Shown here: piece by piece, positions 17,837-31,781 of the stretch
How the letters are laid out: every line of letters starts with the position of its first letter
Numbering within the stretch: the first letter of the stretch is position 1
Source: Kutzneria chonburiensis
GTDB lineage: Bacteria; Actinomycetota; Actinomycetes; Mycobacteriales; Pseudonocardiaceae
Assembly: GCF_028622115.1 (NCBI RefSeq)
Contig: NZ_CP097263.1
Span: 5,084,001-5,148,000 of the forward strand
Length of the DNA: 64,000 nucleotides
Reading direction: 5' to 3'
Made by a program: the position numbers and the translations under genes
Notes under the pieces: generated by a model
Told to the model about the DNA's origin: nothing
What the model saw: the letters and a program-made list of their open reading frames with translations, nothing else
Database searches by the model: none

Positions 17837-18614
17837 CCACGCCGTCGCCTCGCCCGGTCGCCTCCTCGAAGGCGGCGATGATCCGCCGGGAGCGGTCGAC
17901 CTCCTGCTCGGACGGCGCGAACGCCTGGTTGCACGGCGCGAGCTGGCTCGGGTGGATCAGCGTCTTGCCGTCGAAGCCGAACTCGCGGCCCTGCCGGCAC
18001 TCCGCCGCGAAACCGTCGAGATCCTGCACGTCGTTGTAGACGCCGTCGAGGATCTGCTTGCCGTACGCCCGCGCGGCCAGCAGGCACAGCGACAGGCCGG
18101 TCAGCAGCGGCGCACGGCCGGGAACGTGCTGCGCGTGCAGCTCCTTGGCCAGGTCGTTGGTGCCCATGACCAGCACCGTCAGCCGGCTGCTGGCGGCGGC
18201 GATCTCCTTGACGTGCAGGATCGCCACCGGCGTCTCCACCATGGCCCAGATCTTGGTCCGCTCCGGGGCGCCGGCCTGCTCCAGCATCCGTTCGACGGCA
18301 TGCACGTCGGCGGCGGAGTTGACCTTCGGCACGACCACGGCATCCGGGCCGGCCTTGGCCGCGGCCCGCACGTCCTCCTCGTGCCAGACCGTGTCGCAGG
18401 CGTTGACCCGGACCGTCAGCTCGCGCCGCCCGTACTCCCCGGACGCGACGGCGGCGCAAACCCGCTCGCGCGCGGCCGGCTTGGCGTCGGGGGCGACGGC
18501 GTCCTCCAGGTCGAGGATCAGCGCGTCGGCCGGCAGCGTCTTGGCCTTCTCCAGGGCACGCTCGTTGGCACCCGGCATGTACAGCGCCGACCGGCGCGGC
18601 CGCAGGTCACTCAT
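17745..18614 (-). CDS. CoA ester lyase, CitE/HpcH-HpaI family
   Basis: A 289-residue TIM-barrel enzyme of the CitE-like group. Motifs include [17 protein letters not shown] near the N-terminus, LDLEDAV with acidic metal-ligand residues, VRVNA, VVPKV and IWAMVETP. These enzymes cleave or form C-C bonds in citryl-, malyl- or related CoA thioesters with Mg2+. The ATG at 18614 overlaps the upstream gene's stop by 8 bases. It lies in a run of minus-strand genes with a second lyase and a citrate synthase, suggesting one operon acting on C4-C6 acids. The exact substrate is not shown. Confidence 0.85.
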
Positions 18615-19668
18615 GGGACGCCTCCGCGTACGCCTTGGCGAGTTCGGGATCACGCGCCGCAAGGGCGTCGGCCAGCTCGGCGACGACGCGGCACTGCTTG
18701 ACCGTGGCGTCGTCCTGCATCTTGCCGTCGATCATGACCGCGCCGGTGCCGTCGCCCATCGCGGCGATCACCTTTCGCGCCCACGCCACGTCTTCCGGCG
18801 ACGGCGAGAACACCCGGCGGGCGATGTCGACCTGCACGGGGTGCAGGCTCCACGCGCCGACGCAGCCGAGCAGGAAGGCGTTGCGGAACTGGTCCTCGCA
18901 GGCCACGACGTCACGGATGTCGCCGAACGGCCCGTAGTACGGCAGGATCCCGTGCGCCGCGCAGGCGTCGACCATGCGCGCGACGGTGTAGTGCCACAGG
19001 TCCTGCTGGTAGGTCTGCCGGCCGGCGGTCAGGTCGTCGCCAACCGGATCCGTGCGCACGAGGTAGCCGGGGTGGCCGCCGCCGACCCGCGTGGTCTTCA
19101 TGCGGCGGCTGGCCGCGAGGTCGGCCGGGCCCAGCGACAGGCCCTGCATGCGGGGACTCGCGCCGGCGATCTCCTCGACGTTGGCCACGCCGCGGGCCGT
19201 CTCCAGGATGGCGTGCACCAGGATCGGCCTGGTCAGGCCGGCCTTGGCCTCCAGCTGGGCCAGCAACCGGTCGACGTAGTGGATGTCCTCGGCGCCCTCC
19301 ACCTTCGGCACCATGATCACGTCCAGCTTGTCGCCGACCTCGGTGACCAGCGTGAGCAGGTCGTCGAGACCCCACGGCGAGTCAAGGCTGTTCACCCTGG
19401 TCCACAGCTGCGTGTCGCCGAAGTCGGTGGCCTTGGCCACGGCCACCAGCCCGGCCCGGGAGGCCTCCTTGCGGTCCGCCCGCACGGCGTCCTCGAGGTT
19501 GCCGAGCAGCACGTCCACCTTGGGCACGAGGTCGGGCACCTTGGCGGCCATCTTCTCGTTGCCCGGGTCGAAGAAGTGGATCATCCGGGACGGCCGGAAC
19601 GGGATCTCCCGCAGCGGCTGCGGCGCGCCGACCGCGAGCGGCCGGAAGAAGTCCTTGGCGGAACGCAT
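18607..19668 (-). CDS. Malyl-CoA lyase-like HpcH/HpaI aldolase
   Basis: A 353-residue enzyme longer than CitE, resembling L-malyl-CoA/beta-methylmalyl-CoA lyases. Features are [27 protein letters not shown] with acidic metal ligands, [38 protein letters not shown], and the loop [17 protein letters not shown]. It would split malyl-CoA-type thioesters into acetyl- or propionyl-CoA and glyoxylate. It sits between a citrate synthase upstream (6-bp gap) and a CitE-like lyase downstream (8-bp overlap), so all three are probably co-expressed. The cluster may handle glyoxylate or propionate-derived acids; this is inferred from family. Confidence 0.85.
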
Positions 19669-19674
19669 GGCCGA

Positions 19675-20859
19675 TCATCGCTCCGGGCGGACGCCGCTGT
19701 ACACGCCGAGTGGCCGAAACCTCAGTCCCGGCTCGCCGTACTCCTCGACGGCGTGGGCCAGCCAGCCGGCCGTGCGGGCCAGGGCGAAGATCGTCTCGCC
19801 GGCGTCGGGACGCATGCCGTAGGCGTGCATCAAGGCGGCCAACGCCAGGTCGACGTTGGGAAAGGTGTCGGCGGCGACGATCACCGCGTCGACGGTGCCC
19901 ATCACGTCGGCGGCGTCCGGATGGTTGCGGAGCAGGCCGAGCAGCACGTCGGCGCGGGGGTCGTGGGCGCGGTAGATGCGGTGTCCGAAGCCGGGGATGC
20001 CGCCGGCGCGCTGCCGCTCGGCGACGGCGCGCAGCGGGTTGTCCATCGCCTCGGCGAGGAACCGGTAGGCGAGGGTGCTCTGCACGCCGTGGTAGCGGCC
20101 GTCCACCGCGCCGAGCCCGGCGGACACCACGGCGTACGGGTGCGCGCGGGCGCTGGCCGCGACGCGGGCGGCGACCGTCGAGACGGCGAGGTCGTGGTCG
20201 GCGAGCAGCACCAGGGCGATGTTGAGCAGGCCGATGTCGACCGGGCGGCCGCCGAGTTTGTTGACGAGACGCTGGGCGATCAACGTGCCGGTGGCTTCGC
20301 CGTCGCCCGGGAGGGCGTCGGCCAGCACGCCGATGATCTTCTGCCCGGCCCGGACGACGGCCGGCGTGGACAGGTCGAGCCGGAGCGGGTCGACCGCGCC
20401 GAGCACCGCGACGGCGACCTTCATCGCGTCGACCGTGCCGGTCCTGGCCGGCAGCGCGGCCAGTGCCGTTCGTACGACCTGGACCAGTGAGTCATATCGG
20501 GGGAAATTTCGAGTTTGGTCGAGTTCGCCGGTCCAGAGCAGTCCGGCAACCGCCTCGAAACTGACGGTCAGGGCGAGTTCGCCGGCGTTGCGGCCGCGGT
20601 AGAAGAGCAGGTCGTCGTCGAGCAGCGTGAGTTCGGTGCGGATCCGCTCTACCGCGCCGGACGCCTGCCGGGTGTCACGGCCCTTCGCGACGAAATCGTC
20701 GATCTCGTCCTGTCGGAAGAAGCTACCGCGACGACCGTCCAGCCTGTGGCTGCGCAGCAGGCCACGGCTGGCGTAGGCGTAGACCGTCGTCTCCTTCACG
20801 CCCAACCGGTGCGCCACCTGGGCAGTGGTCAGGTAACGCTCGTCACTCGCGCCGGCCAT
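19675..20859 (-). CDS. Citrate synthase-family enzyme with N-terminal HTH domain
   Basis: A 394-residue fusion. Residues 1-60 are a MerR/excisionase-type HTH: YLTTAQVAHRLGVKETTVYA, followed by a wing with RGSFFRQDEIDDF. The rest is a citrate synthase fold with active-site blocks DHDLAVSTVAAR (His), GIPGFGHRIYRAHDPRAD (His) and the Asp-containing segment FPNVDLALAAL. It may condense acetyl- or propionyl-CoA with oxaloacetate, or may have become a ligand-sensing regulator that retains the fold. It diverges from a second citrate synthase, and the shared promoter carries two perfect inverted repeats that this HTH could bind. It leads a three-gene minus-strand operon. Confidence 0.8.
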   Translation of the reverse strand: MAGASDERYLTTAQVAHRLGVKETTVYAYASRGLLRSHRLDGRRGSFFRQDEIDDFVAKGRDTRQASGAVERIRTELTLLDDDLLFYRGRNAGELALTVSFEAVAGLLWTGELDQTRNFPRYDSLVQVVRTALAALPARTGTVDAMKVAVAVLGAVDPLRLDLSTPAVVRAGQKIIGVLADALPGDGEATGTLIAQRLVNKLGGRPVDIGLLNIALVLLADHDLAVSTVAARVAASARAHPYAVVSAGLGAVDGRYHGVQSTLAYRFLAEAMDNPLRAVAERQRAGGIPGFGHRIYRAHDPRADVLLGLLRNHPDAADVMGTVDAVIVAADTFPNVDLALAALMHAYGMRPDAGETIFALARTAGWLAHAVEEYGEPGLRFRPLGVYSGVRPER

Positions 20860-20880
20860 GACCTGCGACTCCTCATTTTA

Positions 20881-20918
20881 TGTTGACTGTATCAACATTG
20901 ACAATAGTGGATTGTCAA
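20881..20918. promoter_or_regulatory. Two adjacent perfect operators between divergent citrate synthases
   Basis: TGTTGA-ctgta-TCAACA (20881-20897) and TTGACAAT-agtgg-ATTGTCAA (20898-20918) are perfect inverted repeats with 5-nt spacers, abutting each other in an AT-rich island in the 93-bp gap. They likely bind the HTH-citrate synthase and include promoter elements. Confidence 0.65.
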
Positions 20919-20952
20919 ATCAACAGTGGATCCAGTCGAGATGGAGGTCGAG

Positions 20953-22101
20953 ATGGACGTACCGGCTGGTCTGCGCGACGTCGTGGTCACCACCACCGAG
21001 CTGGGTGACGTGCGCGGCGCCGAGGGCTTCTACCACTACCGCGGCTACCCCGCGATCGAGCTGGCCCGGACCAGGACGCTGGAGGACGTCTGGTTCCTGT
21101 TCGTGGAGGGCCGACTGCCCGAGGCCGACGAACGAGTCGACTTTGCAAAAAAGGTCGCCGCGCTACGACCGCTGCCGGACGAGGTGCGTGAGGTGTTGCC
21201 GGCGATTGCCAAAGCCGGCGAGAAGTTCAATCCACTGGCCGGACTGCGCACGGCGTTGTCGCTGATCGGCGCGGCTCGTGACCTGCCACCGGTGTGGGAC
21301 GCGACGCCCGCGCGCCGACGGGCCGACGCACTGCTGGTCAGCGCCGTGACGCCGACCATCCTGGCCGCGCTGTACCGACTGCGGTCCGGTTTGCCGGCGC
21401 TGGAGCCTCGTGCGGATTTGTCCGCGGCGGCGAACTGGCTCTATCTCGTCACCGGCGAGGTCCCGGACGAAAACCAGGAATCGGCAATTCAGAGCTATCT
21501 CGTCTCGACCGTGGACCACGGCTTCAACGCGTCCACGTTCACCGCCCGGGTCGTGGCGTCGACCGGCTCGGACGTCGTCTCCGCGGTGTCCGCCGCGATC
21601 GGCGCGTTCGTCGGTCCGCTGCACGGCGGCGCCCCGGACCGCGCGCTGGACAGCCTCGACGAGATCGGCACCCCGGACAAGATCGACGCGTGGGCCCGTG
21701 ACAAGGTGGCGGCCGACGACCGGATCATGGGCTTCGGCCATGCCGTCTACCGCACCGAGGACCCGCGGGCCCGGATGCTGCGGGAGATCGCGCTGAACCT
21801 GGCGGCCCGGGGCTTCGCGCCCGAGCTGGCCGACTTCGCCGTCACCGTCGAGCGGCGGATCGTCGAGATCCTGGCCGAGTTGAAACCCGGCCGGCAGTTG
21901 TACGCCAACGTCGAGTTCTACGCCGGCGTCGTGATGGAGCAGTGCGGTCTGCCGCGCTCCATGTTCACGCCGACGTTCGCCGCCAGCCGGGTCATCGGCT
22001 GGTCCGCGAACGTGCTCGAGCAGGCCGGCGGCGGCAAGGTCATCCGACCCGCCGCCCGCTACGTCGGCCCGCCGGCACCCCAACCGGTGCCGGCGGCCTA
22101 G
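20953..22101 (+). CDS. Citrate synthase family protein
   Basis: A 382-residue citrate/2-methylcitrate synthase without the HTH. Active-site blocks are STVDHGFNASTFTARV (His), IMGFGHAVYRTEDPRARML (His) and LYANVEFYAGVVM (Asp); the GPLHGGAPDRAL loop is present. It condenses an acyl-CoA with oxaloacetate. I chose ATG 20953, preceded by GGAGG with a 5-base spacer, over GTG 20926 and ATG 20941; the resulting VPAGLRDVVVTTTELGDVRG start matches actinobacterial homologues. It is divergent from the HTH-citrate synthase and probably controlled by it through the shared operators. Confidence 0.9.
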   Translation: MDVPAGLRDVVVTTTELGDVRGAEGFYHYRGYPAIELARTRTLEDVWFLFVEGRLPEADERVDFAKKVAALRPLPDEVREVLPAIAKAGEKFNPLAGLRTALSLIGAARDLPPVWDATPARRRADALLVSAVTPTILAALYRLRSGLPALEPRADLSAAANWLYLVTGEVPDENQESAIQSYLVSTVDHGFNASTFTARVVASTGSDVVSAVSAAIGAFVGPLHGGAPDRALDSLDEIGTPDKIDAWARDKVAADDRIMGFGHAVYRTEDPRARMLREIALNLAARGFAPELADFAVTVERRIVEILAELKPGRQLYANVEFYAGVVMEQCGLPRSMFTPTFAASRVIGWSANVLEQAGGGKVIRPAARYVGPPAPQPVPAA

Positions 22102-22116
22102 TCGACACCGGCTGAC

Positions 22117-23115
22117 TCATCTGGCCCGCTGGGTCAGGATCACGCAGCCGAGCACGACGAGCGCCACCACCACCGTGACGACGTCGATGTGCTCGCCCAG
22201 CAACAAGGCCGACCAGGCCAGGGTCAGCACCGGCTGGATGGCCTGGATCTGGCCGATCCGGGCCACGCCACCGCGGCCCAGGCCCGCGTACCAGGCGAAG
22301 AAGCCCAGGAACTGGGAGATCACCGCCACGTAGGCGAAGCCGGCCCAGGCCAGGGCCGGGGCGGCGGCCAGGCCGTGGGCGCTGACGACGGCGACCGGAA
22401 TCGTCACCGGCAGCGCCAGAACCAGCGCCCACGAGATCGTCCGAGCGCCACCGAGGTCACGGGAGAGGACGCCGCCCTCGGCGTAGCCCAGTGCGCACAC
22501 CACTACGGCGGCAAGGAACCACAGGTCGGCGGCCCGAAAGCCGCCGGCCATGCCGCCGGAGACGGCGACGAACGTCAGCACCGCCGCGAAGCCCGCGCCG
22601 GCGGCCAGCCAGAACTTCGGCGACGGCCGCTCGCCGCCACGCACCACGGCGAACACGGCGGTGGCCGCCGGCAGCAACGCGATGACCACGGCCCCGTGGG
22701 CAGCGGTCGCCTGGGTCAGGGCAATGGAAGTCAACGTCGGGAAGCCGATCACCACGCCGAACGCCACCACGACCAGTCGCCGCAGCTGGGCGGCGGTCGG
22801 CCACTGAAAGCCGACCGCTGGCCGCCTGACCAGCACGGATACCGACTGACCGGCAGCCGACCGGGACGCGGGGAAGGCTGCTCGAGCACCGGACCGGGTC
22901 CACGCGAGGCGCGGCACGCCGGATAACACCAGGTAGCCGATAGCCAACCCACCGGCGACCGCGGCCCGGCCGAACGACATGAACCACGGGTCGAGGAAGG
23001 CAACGGAGTACCTGGTGACGGGCAGGGTGAGGCTGAAGGCCAGCACCCCGAGCGCGCCGAGCGCGATGCCGGACGTTACCCGACCGGGGGCAGTAACGTT
23101 ATCCTTGGCTCTCAT
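22117..23115 (-). CDS. EamA/DMT family transporter
   Basis: A 332-residue membrane protein with about ten hydrophobic helices in two EamA repeats, typical of the drug/metabolite transporter superfamily. The second repeat is clear in WAGFAYVAVISQFLGFFAWY and LTLAWSALLLGEHIDVVTVV. Members export amino acids, nucleosides or small metabolites. The ATG at 23115 overlaps, on the opposite strand, the start codon of the divergent MocR regulator, and GTTATCC/GGATAAC repeats span that site. The regulator therefore very probably controls this transporter; a B6-vitamer or amino-acid substrate would fit MocR biology but is not demonstrated. Confidence 0.85.
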   Translation of the reverse strand: MRAKDNVTAPGRVTSGIALGALGVLAFSLTLPVTRYSVAFLDPWFMSFGRAAVAGGLAIGYLVLSGVPRLAWTRSGARAAFPASRSAAGQSVSVLVRRPAVGFQWPTAAQLRRLVVVAFGVVIGFPTLTSIALTQATAAHGAVVIALLPAATAVFAVVRGGERPSPKFWLAAGAGFAAVLTFVAVSGGMAGGFRAADLWFLAAVVVCALGYAEGGVLSRDLGGARTISWALVLALPVTIPVAVVSAHGLAAAPALAWAGFAYVAVISQFLGFFAWYAGLGRGGVARIGQIQAIQPVLTLAWSALLLGEHIDVVTVVVALVVLGCVILTQRAR

Positions 23116-23147
23116 GAATGAGGATAACGCAGAGCAGGGTGTTATCC
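23098..23147. promoter_or_regulatory. GTTATCC/GGATAAC repeats over the divergent starts
   Basis: Three copies of the same heptamer occur: GTTATCC (23098-23104), GGATAAC (23122-23128) and GTTATCC (23141-23147). The first two extend to a perfect 8-17-8 inverted repeat. They flank both overlapping start codons and are likely MocR binding sites. Confidence 0.6.
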
Positions 23148-24523
23148 GACTCCTGCGCACCGCCGTCCACCAGGTGGGACCGGGCGGACGGCTGCCGTCG
23201 GTCCGGAAGATCATGGCTGAGCTGCGGGTGTCGCCGGTGACCGTGCAGCACGCGATGCGCCGGCTGACCGCCGAGGGTGTTATCGAGGTCCGGGCCAGCA
23301 AGGGGGCCTACGCGGCGGCCAGGCGGCCGACGGCGGTGGTGCCGGACCTGGAGTGGCAGTCGGTGGCGCTGGGGGCGAAGCCGCCGGGCGACGAGTCGTT
23401 GCGTGACCTGCTGGCCCTGCCGGAGCTCGACAAGGTGCCGATGTCGGGCGGTTATCTCGATCCGGAGCTGCAACCGGTAGCAGCGCTAGGGGCTGCATTG
23501 GGCCGGGTGTCGAGGCGGCCCGAAGCCTGGGCGCGCGGTCCGGTCGAGGGCCGGGAAGAGCTGCGGGCGTGGTTCGCCCGTGAGGCCGGCGGCGCGTTCC
23601 GGGCCGGCGACATGGTCGTGTGCCCCGGCGGCCAGGCGGCGTTGTCGACGGCCTTCCGGGCGTTGACCGGTCCCGGCGACCCGGTCCTGGTCGAGGCTCC
23701 GACCTATCTCGGCGCAATCGCGACAGCCCGAAGCGCCGGCCTTCGCGTAGTGCCGGTGCCGGCCGACGCCGACGGTGTCCGGCCGGATCTGCTGGCCGCG
23801 ACGTTCGAGCGCACCGGCGCGAAGGTCTTCTACTGCCAGCCGCTGTACGCCAATCCGCACGGGGCCGTGCTGTCCCGTGAGCGGCGACCGGAGGTGCTAG
23901 CGGTGCTAGCGAAGTTCGGGGCGTTCCTCATCGAGGACGACTATGCCCGCGACCTGGTCATCGACGGCACCGCGCCGCCCCCGCTGGCCGCCGACGACGT
24001 GCACGGACACGTCATCTACCTGCGCTCGCTGACCAAGACCGCCGCCCCCGGACTACGGGTGGCCGCCATCGGCGCCCGCGGCGCCGCCGGCGCCCGGTTG
24101 CGCTCGGCCCGAGTCATGGACGACTTCTTCGTCGCCGGACCCCTACAGCTAGCAGCACTAGAATTCCTGTCATCGCCAGCGTGGCAGCGCCACCTGACCT
24201 CCCTGCGCCCCGCCCTCAAAGCCCGGCGCGACGCCCTCCTCACCGCCGTCGCCACCGAGCTCCCCCAGTTTCACCCCGTCACCGTTCCTCGGGGCGGCAT
24301 GCAGGCGTGGCTTCGCCTCCCCGACGGCGTCGACGACCTCGCCCTGACCACCGCCGCTGCTGCCCAGGGCGTCGTCGTCTCCGCCGGCCGTCCTTGGTAC
24401 GCCGCCGACCCACCCGCCCCACACCTGCGCCTCACCTTCGCCGGCGCACCCCCCGAGGTGCTCACCGACGGCATCCGTCGCCTGGCCCACGCCGCCCGCG
24501 CGATCGGCATACCTCCCGGCTAG
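23114..24523 (+). CDS. MocR-type GntR regulator with aminotransferase domain
   Basis: A 469-residue fusion regulator. The N-terminal winged helix has LPSVRKIMAELRVSPVTVQH. The remainder is a fold-type I PLP aminotransferase-like domain with the cofactor Lys in YLRSLTKTAAPGLRVAAIG and the Asp of IEDDYARDL. MocR proteins sense PLP or PLP-amino acid adducts and regulate a neighbouring gene, here the divergent EamA transporter. Its coding sequence contains three CTAGC-N3-GCTAG-like palindromes (near 23477, 23897 and 24149), encoded with rare CTA leucine or GTA valine codons. The start overlaps the divergent start codon, implying leaderless or very short-leader transcripts, or an alternative downstream start. 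Confidence 0.85.
   Translation: MNEDNAEQGVIRLLRTAVHQVGPGGRLPSVRKIMAELRVSPVTVQHAMRRLTAEGVIEVRASKGAYAAARRPTAVVPDLEWQSVALGAKPPGDESLRDLLALPELDKVPMSGGYLDPELQPVAALGAALGRVSRRPEAWARGPVEGREELRAWFAREAGGAFRAGDMVVCPGGQAALSTAFRALTGPGDPVLVEAPTYLGAIATARSAGLRVVPVPADADGVRPDLLAATFERTGAKVFYCQPLYANPHGAVLSRERRPEVLAVLAKFGAFLIEDDYARDLVIDGTAPPPLAADDVHGHVIYLRSLTKTAAPGLRVAAIGARGAAGARLRSARVMDDFFVAGPLQLAALEFLSSPAWQRHLTSLRPALKARRDALLTAVATELPQFHPVTVPRGGMQAWLRLPDGVDDLALTTAAAAQGVVVSAGRPWYAADPPAPHLRLTFAGAPPEVLTDGIRRLAHAARAIGIPPG
23897..23909. repeat. CTAGC-N3-GCTAG palindrome in the MocR gene
   Basis: A perfect 5-3-5 copy with spacer GGT. One-mismatch relatives lie at 23477-23489 and 24149-24161 in the same gene. In frame, the copies encode Leu-Ala-x-Leu or Val-Ala-Ala-Leu. 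Confidence 0.7.
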
Positions 24524-24880: not shown

Positions 24881-25366
24881 GTGATGACAGCCACGGACGG
24901 ATTTGCGGTCGTACGGGCGGACAGCGAATTCAAACTTGTCGCGCTCCGCGATTTCCCGGCCGGCAGCCGGCTATTCGCGGTGGAGGGGCAGATCACCGAG
25001 GAGCCGACCCGCTATTCGGTGCAGGTGGGCGCGGGCATCCACCTCGACCTGCCCGGCGGGCACGCCCCCGAGGAGCTGATGGACCGCTTCTTCTGGCGGT
25101 TCACCAACCACAGCTGCGCGCCCAACGCCCAGCTGCGCGGCCGGGACTTCTTCGCGCTGCGGCCGATCGAGCCGTGGCAGGAGATCACGTTCCACTACGA
25201 GAGCACCGAGTACGAGATGGCCGAGCCGTTCGACTGCCACTGCGGGGAAAGCGCCTGCCGCGGCCGGATCGAGGGCTTCCGGTACCGCACCGAGGACGAG
25301 CGCGAGCAGCTGCGCCCGATGCTGGCGGACCACCTGCTGTCCATGCTCAATGTCGTCCACCGCTGA
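24881..25366 (+). CDS. SET-domain protein (putative lysine methyltransferase)
   Basis: A 161-residue compact SET-domain protein. The core motif RFTNHSCAPNAQLRGRDFF matches the NHSCxPN S-adenosylmethionine/pseudoknot signature. ITFHYESTEYEM supplies the aromatic residues around the lysine channel, and CHCGESACRG is a post-SET Cys cluster. Family members transfer methyl groups to lysine amines. GGAGG at 24871-24875 serves GTG 24881 (5-base spacing) or ATG 24884 (8-base spacing). The 3' end overlaps the membrane peptide synthetase gene by 17 bases, so the two are coupled. Methylation of that enzyme's lysine-type product, or of the enzyme itself, is an attractive inference without direct evidence. 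Confidence 0.8.
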   Translation: MMTATDGFAVVRADSEFKLVALRDFPAGSRLFAVEGQITEEPTRYSVQVGAGIHLDLPGGHAPEELMDRFFWRFTNHSCAPNAQLRGRDFFALRPIEPWQEITFHYESTEYEMAEPFDCHCGESACRGRIEGFRYRTEDEREQLRPMLADHLLSMLNVVHR

Positions 25367-28300
25367 GCGCCCGACCGTCCTGCACGAGTTCTTCGCGCAG
25401 GCAGCGGTGCGCTGGGGAGACGCCGTCGCGGTGGACGTGCCGCCGGCGGCGTCCCGACCGGCCCGCGACACGCTGACCTACGCGGAGCTCAAGCACGAGT
25501 CGGAGCTGCTGGCCGGCGTGGTGCACCTGGCGGTCGGCCGCGGCGCGGTCGCGGCGATCATGCTGGGGCGCACCACGCCGCGCCTGTACGTGGCCCAGCT
25601 GGCGGTGCTGCGCTCGGCCGCCGCCTACGTGTGCATCGACCCGGCGTTCCCGGACGACCAGGTCACGCACATCCTCAGCGACTCGAGGGCCCGGGCGCTG
25701 CTGACCGACGCGGCCGGCGCGGAGCGGGCGAGCCAGATCGGCTATCCCGGCCCGATCATCCGCGTCGACCTGCCGCTGACCACGCCGGCGCTGCCGCTGC
25801 CCGAACCGCCGTCGCCCGACGACGTCGCGTACATCATCTACACCTCGGGCAGCACCGGCCGCCCCAAGGGCGTGATGATCCAGCACCGGGGCGCCGCCAA
25901 CCTGGTCGGCGGGGACGTCGAGGAGTTCGACCTCGGGCCGGGAGACCGTGTGGCGCAAGGGTCTTCGCCGGCCTACGACTCCTCGATCGAGGAGATCTGG
26001 ATGGCGCTGGCCACCGGCGCCACGGTGGTCTCGATGGACGACGAGACGGCCCGCCTTGGCCCGGATCTGGTGCCCTGGCTGCGCAATGAGCGGATCACCG
26101 TGCTCTGCCCGCCGCCGACCCTGTTGCGCGCCACCGGTTGTGCCGATCCGCGCACGGAGTTGTTGCACCTGCGACTGTTGTACGTCGGCGGCGAGGCGCT
26201 GCCGGATGATGTGGCGGAACGCTGGTCGCGCGGCCGCCGGATGGTCAACGGCTACGGCCCGACCGAGTGCACGGTCACGTGCATGCGGCAGGACATCGCG
26301 CCCGGTGAGGCGGTGGCGATCGGCCGTCCGGTGCCGGGCATGCGCGCCCACGCCCTCGACGAACAGCTGAAACCCGTTGCCCCGGGCGACAAGGGCGAGC
26401 TGTGCATGAGCGGCCCCGGGCTGGCGCTCGGCTATCTCAACCAGCCGGAGCTGACCAAGACGAAGTTCGTCGACCACCCGGAGCTGGGCCGGATCTACCG
26501 CACCGGCGACCTCGTGCACGCCGACCCGGACGGCACCTTCTTCTATCACGGCCGCATCGACTCGCAGGTCAAGCTGCGGGGTTACCGGATCGAGCTGGAA
26601 GCCATCGAGGCCGTGCTGGCCCAGTGCCCCGGCATCCGCGAAGCGGCCTGCCGCGTGCAGGGCGAAGGTGCCACGGAAATGCTTGCCGCGCACGTGGTTC
26701 CGGACGATCCGCGCAAGCCGCCGCATGTCGAGACGCTCAAGGCCGAACTGCGCAAGGCACTTCCGACCTACATGATGCCGGGCGCATTCGGCATCATCGA
26801 CGACCTTCCCCGCACGGCCGGCGGAAAGCTCCGCCGCACCGAGCTGCCCGTGCTCAAATCGCAGCGCACGACCAGCACGCAACCGGCGCCGACCGATCCG
26901 ATTGCCTTGTTCATCGCGGAATCCGTGCAGGCCGTGCTACAACTTCCCGGACTGCCCGGCACCAACGACGACTTCTTCACCGACCTCGGCGGCAGCTCGC
27001 TCAACGGCGCCATGCTGATCACCAAGCTGCGCACCAATTCCGCCACCGCGTCGATCACCGTGCGCGACCTGTACGAGACGCGCACGATCGGCCAGCTGAT
27101 CGGCCGGGCCGTGCCGGACACGGAAATCGTTGGCAATCAACGGGAACGACACACCGTCGACGTGATCGGCGCGACCATCGCGCAGGCGCTGTGGCTGCTG
27201 CTCGAGCTCGCCTTCGGCTCGATCATCGCCTACTTCGTCACGTTCCAGGCGCTGCCGTGGGTGGCCACGCAGATCACGCTGACCGGCATGATCTTCCTCG
27301 CGCCGGTGGTGCTCAGCGTGGTGCGGCTGGCCATCACGCCGCTGTCCATCGAGATCGCGGTGCGGGCCAAGAAGGTCCTGATCGGACAGTACAAAGCGGT
27401 GCGCACGCCGGTGTGGAGCCCGTTCCACGTCCGGATCTGGCTGGTCCGGCAGTTCATGCGGTTCATCCCGTGGGGCACCATCGCCGGCACCGAGTACACG
27501 TCGGTCGTGCTGCGCAAGCTGGGCGCCAAGATCGGCGAGCGGGTGCACATCCACCGCGGCGTCAACCTCCAGCAGGGCGGCTGGGACCTGCTGGAGATCG
27601 GCGACGACGTCACGATCAGCCAGGACGCCTCGCTCGGCCTCGTGCATCTGGAACAGGGCCAGGTGGTGATCGGCCCGGTGACGGTCGACAGCGGCGCGGT
27701 GATCGACATCCGGGCCGGCGTCGACCCGCACACCCGGGTCGGCCGCAACGCCTGGCTGTCACCGTTGTCCCATCTGTCAAAGGGAAGCACCGTGCCCGAT
27801 GGCGAACGCTGGGACGGCGCACCGGCCAGGCCGGCCGGCCTGGCCGGCGAACCGCCGACCGTGAGCGGTCGCACGCTCTCGCCGCGCGGCCACGGCCTGG
27901 CGATGATCCTCTGCCGCAACCTGCTCGGTCTGGCGCTGTCGATCCCGTTCGTCTTCGTCGCCGGCTTCCTCGTGGCCAAACTGGGCCTGACCTACGACAG
28001 TCTCCTTACGGCGCTGAAGAATCCGCTCGATCACATCGCGCTGCTCGCCATACTCGGCGTCTGCGCGTGCCTCTCGCTGGTGTACGAAGTCGCGCTGGAG
28101 GCCATCGCCGCCCGGGCGCTCGGACCCGTCCTGCCCGGCGCGATCAGCCGGTACAGCCTCGGCTACATCCGCGTGTGGCTGAAGACCGGCCTGGTCGACT
28201 CGGCCGGGAAATGGCTGTCCGGCGGCATCTTCTGGCCGGTGTGGCTGCGCGCCGCCGGCATGAGGGTCGGCTCCGGCTGCGAGATCAGCACGATCATCGA

Positions 28301-29411
28301 CGTGGTCCCGGAGCTGGTCACCATCGGCCCCGACACGTTCTTCGCCGACGGCATCTACCTGTGCGGGCCGCGGATCCAGCGCGGCACGGTCGTGCTGGAC
28401 GAGGTCGAGCTGGGCGCCAACACCTTCCTCGGCAACCACGCCGTGATCGCCGCCGGCCAGCAGCTGCCGTCGGACATCCTGATCGGCATCTCCACGGTGG
28501 CCGACGACCGGCTCATCCGGCCCGGCACCTCCTGGTTCGGCCATCCGCCGTTCGAGCTGCCGCAGCGCGAGATCGTCAGCGTCGACCGGTCGCTGACCCA
28601 CGAGCCGTCACTGATCCGCGTGATCAACCGGAACTTCTGGGAGTGGCTCCGGTTCACCCTGCCGCTGGTCCCGCTGGCCGCCGTGGCACTGTGGACGGCC
28701 GGCATCGACAAGGCCGACGAACTCCTTGACACGCCGGCGTTTCTGCTGCTCGGTGTGCCGGCGGTCAGCTTCCTGACCGGCGCCTTCCTGTGCCTGACCG
28801 TGCTGGTGATGAAGTGGGCCCTGCTCGGCCGGGTCAAGGAGGGCATCCACCCGCTGTGGTCGTGCTGGTGCAGCCGCTGGGACTTCCTCTATGTGGCTTG
28901 GGGTTTCATCGCCGGCAAGCCGCTGTCGGCGATGGAGGGCACACTGCTGCTGCCGATCTACCTGCGGTGGATCGGCGTGAAGATCGGCAAGAAGGTGGCG
29001 CTGGGCGAGGGTTTCGCCCAGATCGTCGACCCGGACATGCTGGAGTTCGGCGACGGCGCGACGGTGAACGCCATGTTCCAGGCGCACACCTTCGAGGACC
29101 GCGTGCTCAAGATCGGTCACGTCAAGGTCGGCGCACATTCCACCCTCGGCGACGCCACGGTTCCGTTGTACGGGGCGGTGGTCGGCGAGCACACCACGGT
29201 CGCCCCGCACAGCGTGATCATGAAGCATGAGCACCTGCTGCCCGGACTGCGTTACGAGGGCGCGCCGACCCGGCGACGCGGCGACGACGACGTCGAACCG
29301 GTCGACATCGGCCGCCAGGAGCTCGAAGGTCCACTGTGGAGCGTGCAGCCGGTGGTGGTCGGCGTGGCCCGGCACCGGATCCCGCGGCCGAAGGCACGCA
29401 AGTCCGGGTAA
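25350..29411 (+). CDS. Pls/PosA-type membrane non-ribosomal peptide synthetase
   Basis: A 1353-residue enzyme. An adenylation domain (about 1-510) has YTSGSTGRPKG, NGYGPTECTV, YRTGD, KLRGYRIE and the A10 Lys in RTAGGKLRR. A carrier domain follows (about 525-600) with LGGSS and phosphopantetheine Ser550. Three left-handed beta-helix hexapeptide domains (about 720-815, 975-1060 and 1215-1310) alternate with pairs of membrane helices. This matches epsilon-poly-lysine synthetase and relatives, where the tandem C-terminal domains link amino acids iteratively into homopolymers. The specificity region reads AYDSSIEEIW: Asp210 would hold the amino group, and the nearby acidic residues favour a basic side chain. 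It overlaps the SET gene, and an MFS gene follows 40 bases downstream. The actual monomer is unknown. Confidence 0.85.
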   Translation: MSSTAERPTVLHEFFAQAAVRWGDAVAVDVPPAASRPARDTLTYAELKHESELLAGVVHLAVGRGAVAAIMLGRTTPRLYVAQLAVLRSAAAYVCIDPAFPDDQVTHILSDSRARALLTDAAGAERASQIGYPGPIIRVDLPLTTPALPLPEPPSPDDVAYIIYTSGSTGRPKGVMIQHRGAANLVGGDVEEFDLGPGDRVAQGSSPAYDSSIEEIWMALATGATVVSMDDETARLGPDLVPWLRNERITVLCPPPTLLRATGCADPRTELLHLRLLYVGGEALPDDVAERWSRGRRMVNGYGPTECTVTCMRQDIAPGEAVAIGRPVPGMRAHALDEQLKPVAPGDKGELCMSGPGLALGYLNQPELTKTKFVDHPELGRIYRTGDLVHADPDGTFFYHGRIDSQVKLRGYRIELEAIEAVLAQCPGIREAACRVQGEGATEMLAAHVVPDDPRKPPHVETLKAELRKALPTYMMPGAFGIIDDLPRTAGGKLRRTELPVLKSQRTTSTQPAPTDPIALFIAESVQAVLQLPGLPGTNDDFFTDLGGSSLNGAMLITKLRTNSATASITVRDLYETRTIGQLIGRAVPDTEIVGNQRERHTVDVIGATIAQALWLLLELAFGSIIAYFVTFQALPWVATQITLTGMIFLAPVVLSVVRLAITPLSIEIAVRAKKVLIGQYKAVRTPVWSPFHVRIWLVRQFMRFIPWGTIAGTEYTSVVLRKLGAKIGERVHIHRGVNLQQGGWDLLEIGDDVTISQDASLGLVHLEQGQVVIGPVTVDSGAVIDIRAGVDPHTRVGRNAWLSPLSHLSKGSTVPDGERWDGAPARPAGLAGEPPTVSGRTLSPRGHGLAMILCRNLLGLALSIPFVFVAGFLVAKLGLTYDSLLTALKNPLDHIALLAILGVCACLSLVYEVALEAIAARALGPVLPGAISRYSLGYIRVWLKTGLVDSAGKWLSGGIFWPVWLRAAGMRVGSGCEISTIIDVVPELVTIGPDTFFADGIYLCGPRIQRGTVVLDEVELGANTFLGNHAVIAAGQQLPSDILIGISTVADDRLIRPGTSWFGHPPFELPQREIVSVDRSLTHEPSLIRVINRNFWEWLRFTLPLVPLAAVALWTAGIDKADELLDTPAFLLLGVPAVSFLTGAFLCLTVLVMKWALLGRVKEGIHPLWSCWCSRWDFLYVAWGFIAGKPLSAMEGTLLLPIYLRWIGVKIGKKVALGEGFAQIVDPDMLEFGDGATVNAMFQAHTFEDRVLKIGHVKVGAHSTLGDATVPLYGAVVGEHTTVAPHSVIMKHEHLLPGLRYEGAPTRRRGDDDVEPVDIGRQELEGPLWSVQPVVVGVARHRIPRPKARKSG

Positions 29412-29451
29412 TGGCGAGACGGGTGGCCGACCGACGATCTAAGGTCACCCT

Positions 29452-30651
29452 GTGTCGCAACGGAGAACGCTCGCTGTGCTGGTGGCCGCGCAGATCACCG
29501 GCAGCATCGGGATCGGCGCGTCGGTGTCGGTCGGCGCGGTGCTGGCCGCCGACCTGTCCGGCTCCGCCGCGTGGTCGGGCAGCGCGTCCACCATGACCAC
29601 GCTCGGCGCGGCCGTGTGGGCATTACCCCTGGCCAGGGTGGCCGCCGCGCGCGGACGGCGGCTCGCGCTCAGCCTCGGCTGGGCGGTGTCCATGCTCGGC
29701 GCGCTGCTGGTCATCCTGGCGGCCTCCATCCACTCGTTTCCGTTGACGCTGCCGGCAATGCTGTTGATGGGCGCCGGCACCGCGGCCAATCTCCAGTCCC
29801 GGTTCGCCGCCACAGACCTGGCCGATCCCCGCCACCGCGGCCGGTCGCTGGCGCTGGTCGTGTGGTCGTCCACCATCGGCGCGGTCGGCGGCCCCAACCT
29901 GACCAAGCCCGGCGCGTCGGTCGCCGAGGTGCTCGGTATTCCCCCGCTGGCCGGCCCGTTCGTCTTCTCCGCGGTCGCGGCCGCCGGCGCCGTGATCGTA
30001 CTTTTTGTCCTGCTACGGCCCGATCCGTTGGCCCGCAACGGCTCCGCCGGCCGCAACCTCCGTGTCGGCTGGGAGGTCATCAAATCCTCGCCCCAGGCCC
30101 GATTCGGCGTCGCCACATTGGCCTTCTCGCACACCACCATGGTGTCGCTGATGGCCATGACCCCGGTTCACATGCAGGAGCACGGTTCCACGCTGACCAT
30201 CATCGGCCTGACCATCAGCCTGCACATCGCCGGCATGTACGCGCTGTCACCGGTCATGGGCTGGATCGCCGACCGTTGGGGCCGCGTCCGCACCGTCCTG
30301 GCCGGCCAGGCCGTCCTCGTGCTCGCCGTGGTCCTGGCCGCCACCGCCGGCGACTCCATGACCATGGTCACCGTCGCCCTGATCACCCTCGGCCTCGGCT
30401 GGTCCATGTCCACCGTGGCCGGCTCCACCCTCGTCGCCGACTCCGTCGAACTGGCCCGCCGGCCCGCCGTGCAGGGCGTCTCCGATCTGCTCATGAGCCT
30501 CGTCGGCGCGACCGGAGCCGCCCTGGCCGGCGTCGTCCTGTCCGTACTGACCTACAGCGGCCTGAGCCTGGCCGCCGGCCTGCTGGTGCTGCCGGTGATC
30601 CTGTTCGGCGTCGCCGCCCGTCAGAACCAGGGGTTGGACCAGCCGAGGTAG
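29452..30651 (+). CDS. MFS transporter
   Basis: A 399-residue protein with 12 hydrophobic helices and typical MFS loops (WIADRWGRVRTVLAG after helix 8, RHRGRSLALVVWSS in the first half). It starts at GTG 29452, 40 bases after the synthetase stop on the same strand, so it probably exports the synthetase product or a related compound; this assignment rests on position. No adjacent regulator is seen. The 3' end overlaps the convergent NlpC/P60-like gene by 31 bases, with no intergenic terminator. Confidence 0.85.
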   Translation: MSQRRTLAVLVAAQITGSIGIGASVSVGAVLAADLSGSAAWSGSASTMTTLGAAVWALPLARVAAARGRRLALSLGWAVSMLGALLVILAASIHSFPLTLPAMLLMGAGTAANLQSRFAATDLADPRHRGRSLALVVWSSTIGAVGGPNLTKPGASVAEVLGIPPLAGPFVFSAVAAAGAVIVLFVLLRPDPLARNGSAGRNLRVGWEVIKSSPQARFGVATLAFSHTTMVSLMAMTPVHMQEHGSTLTIIGLTISLHIAGMYALSPVMGWIADRWGRVRTVLAGQAVLVLAVVLAATAGDSMTMVTVALITLGLGWSMSTVAGSTLVADSVELARRPAVQGVSDLLMSLVGATGAALAGVVLSVLTYSGLSLAAGLLVLPVILFGVAARQNQGLDQPR

Positions 30652-31112
30652 TGGCCGCCCCACTTGCTCTCGATGGTGGCGATGGTGGTCTCGCTGAGCT
30701 TGCCGGCGGCCACGATGTCGTTGGAGACGAACTTGCCGTTGCCGATGGAGATCATCACGTGGCCGGCGGTGCTGTTGGGGATGCTGAAGAAGGCCAGGCC
30801 GCCGGCCGGCACCGTGGTGCCGGAGTGCTTGTACCGGCTGGGCGTGGCCGACCAGTGCGCGGCAGCGCTGTTGTGGCCGCTGGCCGAGCGACCGTAGGCC
30901 AGGGCGACGACGTGGTCACAGCGGTGGTCGTAGTCGGAACTGGTGACACCGACATGGTTCTTGGCCCACGTGACGGCCTGGGCGCAGGTGTGCGGATTGC
31001 TGGTGGCGGGGCTGCCGCAGGTCGCCGCGGCCGGGGCGGCAACGGCGGGCGCGGCGATGGCGACCGGGGCGGTCAGCAGCGCGGCGGCCAGCAGTAAGGC
31101 CTTGACCTTCAT
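30621..31112 (-). CDS. Secreted NlpC/P60-like peptidase
   Basis: A 163-residue secreted protein with a signal peptide (1-26). The mature part carries a papain-like Cys/His arrangement: DHRCDHVVALAYG supplies the likely catalytic Cys, GHVMISIGNGKFVSND supplies the His and a following polar residue, as in NlpC/P60 or CHAP cell-wall peptidases. It ends in KWGGHYLGWSNPWF. Such enzymes cut peptidoglycan stem peptides. The start lies 3 bases after the stop of the upstream PGRP amidase gene, so the two wall hydrolases form an operon. Confidence 0.75.
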   Translation of the reverse strand: MKVKALLLAAALLTAPVAIAAPAVAAPAAATCGSPATSNPHTCAQAVTWAKNHVGVTSSDYDHRCDHVVALAYGRSASGHNSAAAHWSATPSRYKHSGTTVPAGGLAFFSIPNSTAGHVMISIGNGKFVSNDIVAAGKLSETTIATIESKWGGHYLGWSNPWF

Positions 31113-31115
31113 GGA

Positions 31116-31781
31116 TCATCCTCCCAGGTGGCTGGCGACGTCCCGGCGCAGCTGCGGCAGCATGCGGTACAGCACGTCGCCCGGACAGTCGGTGGCGACG
31201 TAGTCGCGGTGGCCCTGAATGGCGTTGGGCGAGATCGAGTACTGGTCGCAGACGTAGGCGCACAGCGTCACCAGCGAGTTCCACAGCTTGGCCGGCGGCT
31301 GGGTGGCCATGTAGTTGCCCTCGTTCTCGATCCCGATGGCGATGTCGTTCTGGCCGGGGCAGTGCGCCGCCCGCACGATCTCCGTGCCGCCGCGCAGCGT
31401 GGACAGGCTGTTGTGCCGGCCCTCCATCACGATGCCGCCGCGGGTGTTGGTGAAGTGCTGGCCGGTGTCGCTCCAGTGGTTGTCGTCCATGTGGTGGTTC
31501 TGGATGGACCGGGCCAGCGCGAAGGCGTGGGCCTGCGAGTAGTCGGTGCTGTTCGGCGTGTCGGTGTGGTGGATGAGGATCCGCACCGCCTTGTGCGGCA
31601 GCACCGTCAGCGGGTCGGCCGGCGGCCGCGCGCCCCAGGCCGAGCAGCCGTAGATCGTCGGCGCGGTCGCCGCCGACGCCGTGCCCATGCCCAGGGCCGC
31701 ACCGCCCAGCGCGATGCCGGTGAGGGCGGCCGACCGCAGCAGGGTCCGCCGGTCAAGGAAGTCGCGCTCCGAGTTCTCCAT
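31116..31781 (-). CDS. PGRP-type N-acetylmuramoyl-L-alanine amidase
   Basis: A 221-residue protein with a twin-arginine signal (DRRTLLRSAALTG, cleavage near AASA at about residue 38), so it is probably exported folded by Tat. The mature domain is a peptidoglycan recognition/amidase_2 fold: CSAWGARPP, the zinc ligand His in ILIHHTDT, IGIENEGNY, and the C-terminal ligands in QGHRDYVATDCPGD. It would cleave the bond between N-acetylmuramic acid and L-Ala. It is followed after 3 bases by the NlpC/P60-like gene, so both are likely expressed together during wall remodelling. Confidence 0.9.
   Translation of the reverse strand: MENSERDFLDRRTLLRSAALTGIALGGAALGMGTASAATAPTIYGCSAWGARPPADPLTVLPHKAVRILIHHTDTPNSTDYSQAHAFALARSIQNHHMDDNHWSDTGQHFTNTRGGIVMEGRHNSLSTLRGGTEIVRAAHCPGQNDIAIGIENEGNYMATQPPAKLWNSLVTLCAYVCDQYSISPNAIQGHRDYVATDCPGDVLYRMLPQLRRDVASHLGG

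Follow-up and report, generated by a model that had tools for sequence, protein, structure and literature searches.

The window analysed here is a stretch of 64,000 nucleotides (contig NZ_CP097263.1, positions 5,084,001 to 5,148,000) from the 10.4 Mb single-contig genome of Kutzneria chonburiensis, in which the content of guanine plus cytosine (GC) is about 70%. Within it, a gene for a small SET-domain methyltransferase runs into a gene for a large membrane synthetase related to Pls and PosA. The features of this pair, in window coordinates, are as follows.

24881..25366, forward strand: SET-domain methyltransferase, 161 residues from GTG 24881 or 160 residues from the likelier ATG 24884
25350..29411, forward strand: divergent Pls/PosA-type synthetase of 1353 residues, assigned from Pfam, NCBIfam, hydropathy and a tree
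25350..25366, forward strand: 17 bases shared by the reading frames of SET and synthetase
25977..26279, forward strand: codons of the adenylation pocket, code DSECYGGVTK (K493 lies further on)

The SET frame opens with a GTG-ATG pair and the frame of a relative (locus L033) begins at ATG, so ATG 24884 is probably the start. Third-position GC is 0.92 in both genes, and in the transporter gene that follows them, as expected for genes of a genome with this composition.

Pfam detects AMP-binding (246.7 bits), PP-binding (27.3 bits) and Hexapep (34.1 bits) domains in the synthetase, which are laid out as an adenylation (A) domain at about residues 15-493, a carrier domain at 522-585 with a single GGSS motif at residue 547, and three membrane pairs with left-handed-helix segments. 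By hydropathy the membrane-type pairs fall at about residues 602-673, 849-929 and 1100-1164, and an additional hydrophobic stretch lies within the A domain (residues 52-75). The protein shares with Pls and PosA the form of a one-module synthetase, with an A domain, a carrier and three membrane pairs bearing hexapeptide/left-handed-helix segments, and TIGR02353, the Pls/PosA terminal domain, aligns to its C-terminal half over positions 14-694 of 695. It differs from them in its dedicated SET partner, in its score of 369 bits, which is below the curated cut-off of 423.1 and marks it as a divergent relative rather than a member of the equivalog, and in its placement in a separate clade. The separation from canonical Pls has 100 support in the Shimodaira-Hasegawa-like approximate likelihood ratio test (SH-aLRT), in a quick rooted tree with flagged long branches that was built from open reading frames picked by profile. 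A canonical Pls-type synthetase is encoded elsewhere in the same genome (G000:C1:2531929-2533968; 748 bits, code DAESIGTVVK).

Conservation and reach of the gene pair

Among 60 relatives, eight genomes carry the SET gene at E <= 1e-49, and the same eight have a TIGR02353 match at 357-377 bits, a band set apart from the 429-804 bits of whole TIGR02353 matches over the cut-off. The two genes are adjacent in all eight, with the 17-base overlap kept in seven and an overlap of 4 bases in the eighth. A profile search of 297 genomes of the family (E <= 1e-15) found the SET subfamily in 15 of them (254-272 bits), distant SETs in seven (59-85 bits) and none between, and a synthetase profile (E <= 1e-250) returned the divergent synthetase from an identical set of 15. 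In every one of these carriers the pair is adjacent by coordinates and tblastn, which bears out the original prediction for this locus, namely that the SET and Pls-like genes form a dedicated pair. Presence varies within genera: in genus g16, G639 and G684 carry both genes and G021 neither, and in g27, G578 and G608 carry both and G621 neither. In a sample of 396 genomes from the phylum, the window's own is the sole genome with a SET scoring above 67 bits.

Scanning named genomes with the synthetase alignment yielded 58 loci, comprising 49 readable pockets in the clade, 6 partial ones and 3 unrelated adenylation proteins. In 21 of the 49, the gene immediately upstream of the synthetase encodes a SET of the subfamily. 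Eighteen of these loci are actinobacterial, and the others come from a Gammaproteobacteria bin (L125), Verrucomicrobiia (L135) and Chthonomonas of the Armatimonadota (L152), so that SET-linked loci span four phyla (Actinomycetota, Armatimonadota, Verrucomicrobiota and Pseudomonadota). At all 21, the synthetase has a possible start in the interval from 17 bases before the end of the SET gene to 3 bases after it, giving overlap or abutment. With adjacency in 8 of 8, 15 of 15 and 21 of 49 carriers or relatives, the pairing is not accidental. The broader expectation that a SET gene would be conserved beside Pls homologues holds for those 21 members of the divergent clade but not for canonical Pls: in the 60 relatives, none of the 59 over-cut-off rows (two are pieces of one gene), compared by eye with the coordinates of 14 SET matches, has a SET beside it. 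The named-genome scan likewise placed no SET beside the synthetase in sphingomonad, Planctomycetota, Bdellovibrionales, Myxococcales or Holophagaceae loci; at one locus (L134), where about 40 bases lie upstream, adjacency cannot be judged.

In the synthetase tree, all 20 actinobacterial rows are SET-linked, adjacency requires three changes, and the earliest branches (L153, L141 with L142, and L146) are without SET. SET and synthetase distances are strongly correlated, with a Mantel r of 0.92 over 25 pairs and of 0.89 over a set of 19 (0 of 5000 permutations in each case). The clade-wide distribution and these correlated distances indicate an association that is old or mobile as a unit, yet not universal. 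A literature search, read by title or abstract start, found no study that links SET genes to Pls-type synthetases, in line with the earlier statement that no characterised system with the pairing is known; as far as that search goes, a SET partner is new to enzymes of the Pls/PosA kind.

The synthetase pocket and the SET protein

Residues D210, S211, E214, C253, Y278, G280, G301, V309, T310 and K493 of the synthetase spell the pocket code DSECYGGVTK; positions in the pocket and its 34-residue shell are given below in what we take to be GrsA numbering. Canonical Pls of the same phylum, taken at one locus per genome, read DAESIGTVVK or DAESVGTVVK in 46 of 52 cases (the remaining six are partial or misread), and the window pocket differs from them at five of ten positions and is not a canonical Pls pocket, while D235 and E239 are retained. 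According to the available portion of PMC10522769, it is through E239 that polycation synthetases hold the side-chain cation. The synthetase would work as a polycation enzyme of the Pls/PosA kind and, judged by its pocket, is predicted not to be an epsilon-polylysine synthetase.

The code is identical in 45 of the 49 readable relatives (the exceptions are L124, L127, L142 and L149), and it matches the ten residues printed in PMC10522769 for a Bdellovibrionales CHPA homologue (Bdello_A). In the portion of the paper available, the A domain of that enzyme shows no preference for any of the known diamino acids, the four being lysine (Lys), ornithine (Orn), diaminobutyrate (Dab) and diaminopropionate (Dap), and has modest activity with L-arginine; the authors suggest a larger analogue. 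A Bdellovibrionales locus from our scan (L141) lies in the window clade, though its identity with the assayed protein is not established; it differs from the window in having no adjacent SET, and the only match in the rest of its genome is weak, at 34 bits. The window pocket also agrees with the arginine (Arg) consensus printed in the accessible part of PMC12283262 at positions 235, 239, 301, 330, 331 and 517, and in having small residues at 236 and 322. We infer a monomer that is a cation of about the size of arginine; a methylated cation would likewise suit a pocket with this additional space and an aromatic ring. The expectation of a basic monomer from pocket comparison is supported by the retained D235 and E239; that of a polylysine-like monomer is not, given the five differing positions and the preferences of the identical-code relative.

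All 22 SET-linked synthetases and 24 of the 28 SET-less ones have this ten-residue code. A SET-dependent difference in this code was accordingly rejected, and in the wider shell positions 238, 243, 329 and 332 vary, of which 329 does so partly with SET.

The SET protein matches Pfam SET at 37.2 bits (cut-off 22.4), and its S-adenosylmethionine, zinc and tyrosine residues N76, H77, C79, Y106, C119, C121 and C126 are invariant across 20 aligned sequences. Its structure model has a predicted local distance difference test score of 90.9, and the top fold match is BurB, which is also the best sequence match in the PDB (8.6e-12, against 2.8e-5 for the next); eukaryotic lysine SETs rank after BurB in both lists. 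BurB is a SET-domain methionine S-methyltransferase that acts on free methionine (PDB 9l4t, 9l4v) and holds it through the main chain. The premise of the original prediction, that SET domains methylate lysine amines, is therefore not what the closest solved relative by sequence and fold would suggest. Both proteins are small stand-alone SETs beside an A-domain enzyme, both have the zinc cysteines, and Y106 of the window protein corresponds to Y124 of BurB. They are 28-33% identical, with Trp72 in the window SET against Ser88 in BurB and RFTNHSC against LLLHSC; no decarboxylase is seen near the window SET, where an aminotransferase fold occurs only in a MocR-like regulator; and the partner is a polymer-type synthetase, whereas that of BurB is a nonribosomal peptide synthetase (NRPS)-polyketide synthase.

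The pair SETs group as one clade (95 SH-aLRT), which includes two Holophagaceae SETs unlinked to the synthetase in genomes that carry it; the rows L037, L038 and L039, labelled 'other' in this tree, are likewise pair SETs and have the same sequences as L111, L117 and L115. Sister SETs of the clade (L010, L016) sit among amino-acid or ligase genes.

Readings of the pathway

The explanation we favour, to which we give an even chance, is a two-gene pathway in which a dedicated small-molecule SET methyltransferase tailors the monomer or oligomer of a synthetase for arginine-sized cations. The two genes are probably translationally coupled. The synthetase would activate a large cationic amino acid, with arginine or a cation of that size the likeliest choice ahead of Lys, Orn, Dab or Dap, and load it onto the carrier domain, whereupon the membrane domain would link the units into an oligomer and perhaps extrude it. 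The SET enzyme would be an add-on that methylates monomer or oligomer, a role suggested by the existence of same-code synthetases without SET. We prefer tailoring to monomer supply because the presence or absence of SET makes no difference to the code and because SET-less lineages branch first.

Several observations weigh against this explanation. As many as 28 of the 49 readable synthetases are without an adjacent SET, and when 30 genomes or records, many of them metagenome bins, were searched for unlinked copies, two Holophagaceae bins had a SET of the subfamily (193-203 bits), nine had weak SETs only (< 50 bits) and 19 had none. The family synthetase scan scored two candidates per genome, so that absences there are not proof. 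In the available text of PMC10522769, the authors call the arginine activity of the Bdellovibrionales homologue modest, and the Arg consensus, as printed in the accessible part of PMC12283262, has Asp278 and an aliphatic residue at 299, where the window has Cys and Tyr. All 22 SET-linked synthetases have Thr at position 329, as do both proteins from genomes whose SET is unlinked, and 17 of the 28 SET-less ones, mainly sphingomonads, have Ala; we read this split as probable lineage history, yet it counts for a SET that supplies the monomer. Finally, the SET clade retains the canonical RFxNHSC motif that is partly lost in BurB, which leaves a lysine-type or protein substrate conceivable.

Monomer supply is the rival we take most seriously, although it appears doubtful. 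On this account the SET makes the monomer itself, either S-methylmethionine as BurB does or a methylated Lys or Arg side chain, the A domain selects the methylated cation, and SET-less lineages use another enzyme. The rank of BurB as top match by sequence and fold and the gene order, SET before synthetase, would suit it, as would a pocket with one acid, Tyr299 and Gly322 that might accommodate a bulky methylated cation. There are parallels too: an epsilon-poly-beta-lysine synthetase, an enzyme of the same kind with a different code (DGESISVVNK), had its product traced through a neighbouring monomer-making gene, in that case a lysine-2,3-aminomutase rather than a SET (PMC10522769, available portion), and methionine S-methyltransferase genes adjoin NRPS genes in other systems, as far as the accessible sources describe them. 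Nevertheless, clades that lack SET, the first to branch in the tree among them, have the same code and would have to obtain a SET-made monomer by another route, and no replacement methyltransferase was noticed beside the synthetase at 13 SET-less loci read by eye from crude gene calls, in which MmtN was not searched for. If the SET did yield a permanently charged amino acid (S-methylmethionine, or methylated Lys or Arg) and the synthetase polymerised it, members of the Actinomycetota, Armatimonadota, Verrucomicrobiota and Pseudomonadota would make a natural polycation that carries methyl groups and might be a polysulfonium peptide, an outcome to which we allow a rather slim chance.

That the SET methylates a protein lysine as a form of regulation, for instance in the synthetase itself, is unlikely. 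The intact RFxNHSC motif and tyrosine and the position of eukaryotic lysine SETs after BurB in the match lists speak for it, but SET-less synthetases keep the same architecture and code, the basic C-terminal tail present in some is absent from the SET-linked protein of L039, and the nearest solved relative works on a free amino acid. Far less probable is the version first proposed, in which the amines of a polylysine-like polymer are N-methylated before export by the major facilitator superfamily (MFS) protein encoded 40 bases downstream. The cation-binding E239 and the SET fold fit such a scheme; the pocket is not the canonical DAESIGTVVK, the identical-code relative shows no preference for Lys in the available text of PMC10522769, and the MFS gene is not conserved, so that N-methyl-polylysine is an unlikely product. 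Chance neighbours without a common function are untenable in view of co-occurrence and adjacency in 15 of 15 carriers among 297 genomes, a reach of four phyla, and co-variation.

Tailoring of an arginine-sized cation or its oligomer, our preferred explanation, would bear on both enzymes. A pocket published with its substrate unknown and with modest activity on arginine now marks a clade across many phyla, and the co-inherited methyltransferase offers a direct handle on the chemistry of that clade. Were monomer or product its substrate, this methyltransferase would be a SET enzyme devoted to a peptide polymer, and SET proteins would have a small-molecule role that extends past methionine.

Neighbouring genes and other SET loci

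Two further genes flank the pair.

22979..24523, forward strand: MocR-like regulator (GntR plus aminotransferase fold), upstream of the pair
29452..30651, forward strand: MFS transporter of 399 residues (Pfam MFS_1, 92.4 bits), a neighbour outside the conserved core

Recomputing the open reading frames reproduced exactly the layout first described, with the SET gene, the 17-base overlap, the 1353-residue synthetase, a 40-base gap and the MFS gene. The MFS gene adjoins the pair in five of the eight carriers, two of them with a gap of about 670-735 bases, and its cluster occurs at 3 of 55 loci by crude gene calls, within part of the genus only; we therefore dropped it as a core part of the system and as its proposed exporter. 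A close MocR-like homologue lies upstream of the pair in five of the eight carriers, which makes this gene a local neighbour and a possible regulator.

By the same crude gene calls, no family besides synthetase and SET occurs at more than 5 of the 55 loci; the clustering is coarse enough that its SET cluster caught 14 of the 21 SET-linked loci. The most recurrent neighbours are response regulators (5), a second MFS family (4) and PucR regulators (4), followed by amino acid permeases, MocR, MFS and some others at three loci each; one PucR and one permease were confirmed by Pfam. A single family recurs among SET-less loci, in three Holophagaceae records. In Lentzea and Kibdelosporangium, a PucR-family regulator lies directly upstream of SET (L112:7684-9390, confirmed by Pfam; same place in L114, L115 and L159), where Kutzneria has its MocR-type regulator.

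Further out in the window, positions 18607-22101 hold, as read by eye, one gene resembling citrate lyase and two resembling citrate synthase; one of the latter two has an N-terminal MerR-type helix and stays near the pair in four close relatives. Past the MFS gene, on the reverse strand at 30621-31781, are two secreted cell-wall-type genes, for an N-acetylmuramoyl-L-alanine amidase and a CHAP-like protein (the latter by eye).

SET domains also occur near other amino-acid enzymes. At locus L044 (L044:7508-9001, forward strand), a SET domain forms the C-terminal part of an ATP-grasp protein of the D-Ala-D-Ala ligase type, another amino-acid ligase tied to SET. Its gene adjoins one like lysine-2,3-aminomutase, one that looks GNAT-like by eye and one for a further ATP-grasp with a weak match, and L044:5680-6984 (reverse strand) is part of the same neighbourhood; a search with the SET part of the L044 protein across 149 genomes of that class gave six more matches, each of them weak (45-54 bits). 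Six additional SET loci were inspected by eye, and L198, L201 and L202 among them are without small-molecule context. In L199 and L200 (genomes G621 and G494), SET genes of 66-67 bits lie directly beside a gene that opens like an NRPS condensation domain. The SET genes of the sixth, L196, and of L040 (L040:8105-8641) adjoin Leu/Glu-dehydrogenase-like genes (dehydrogenases by eye), and the vicinity of L040 also holds an AMP-ligase and a lanthipeptide-synthetase-like protein (the latter by eye).

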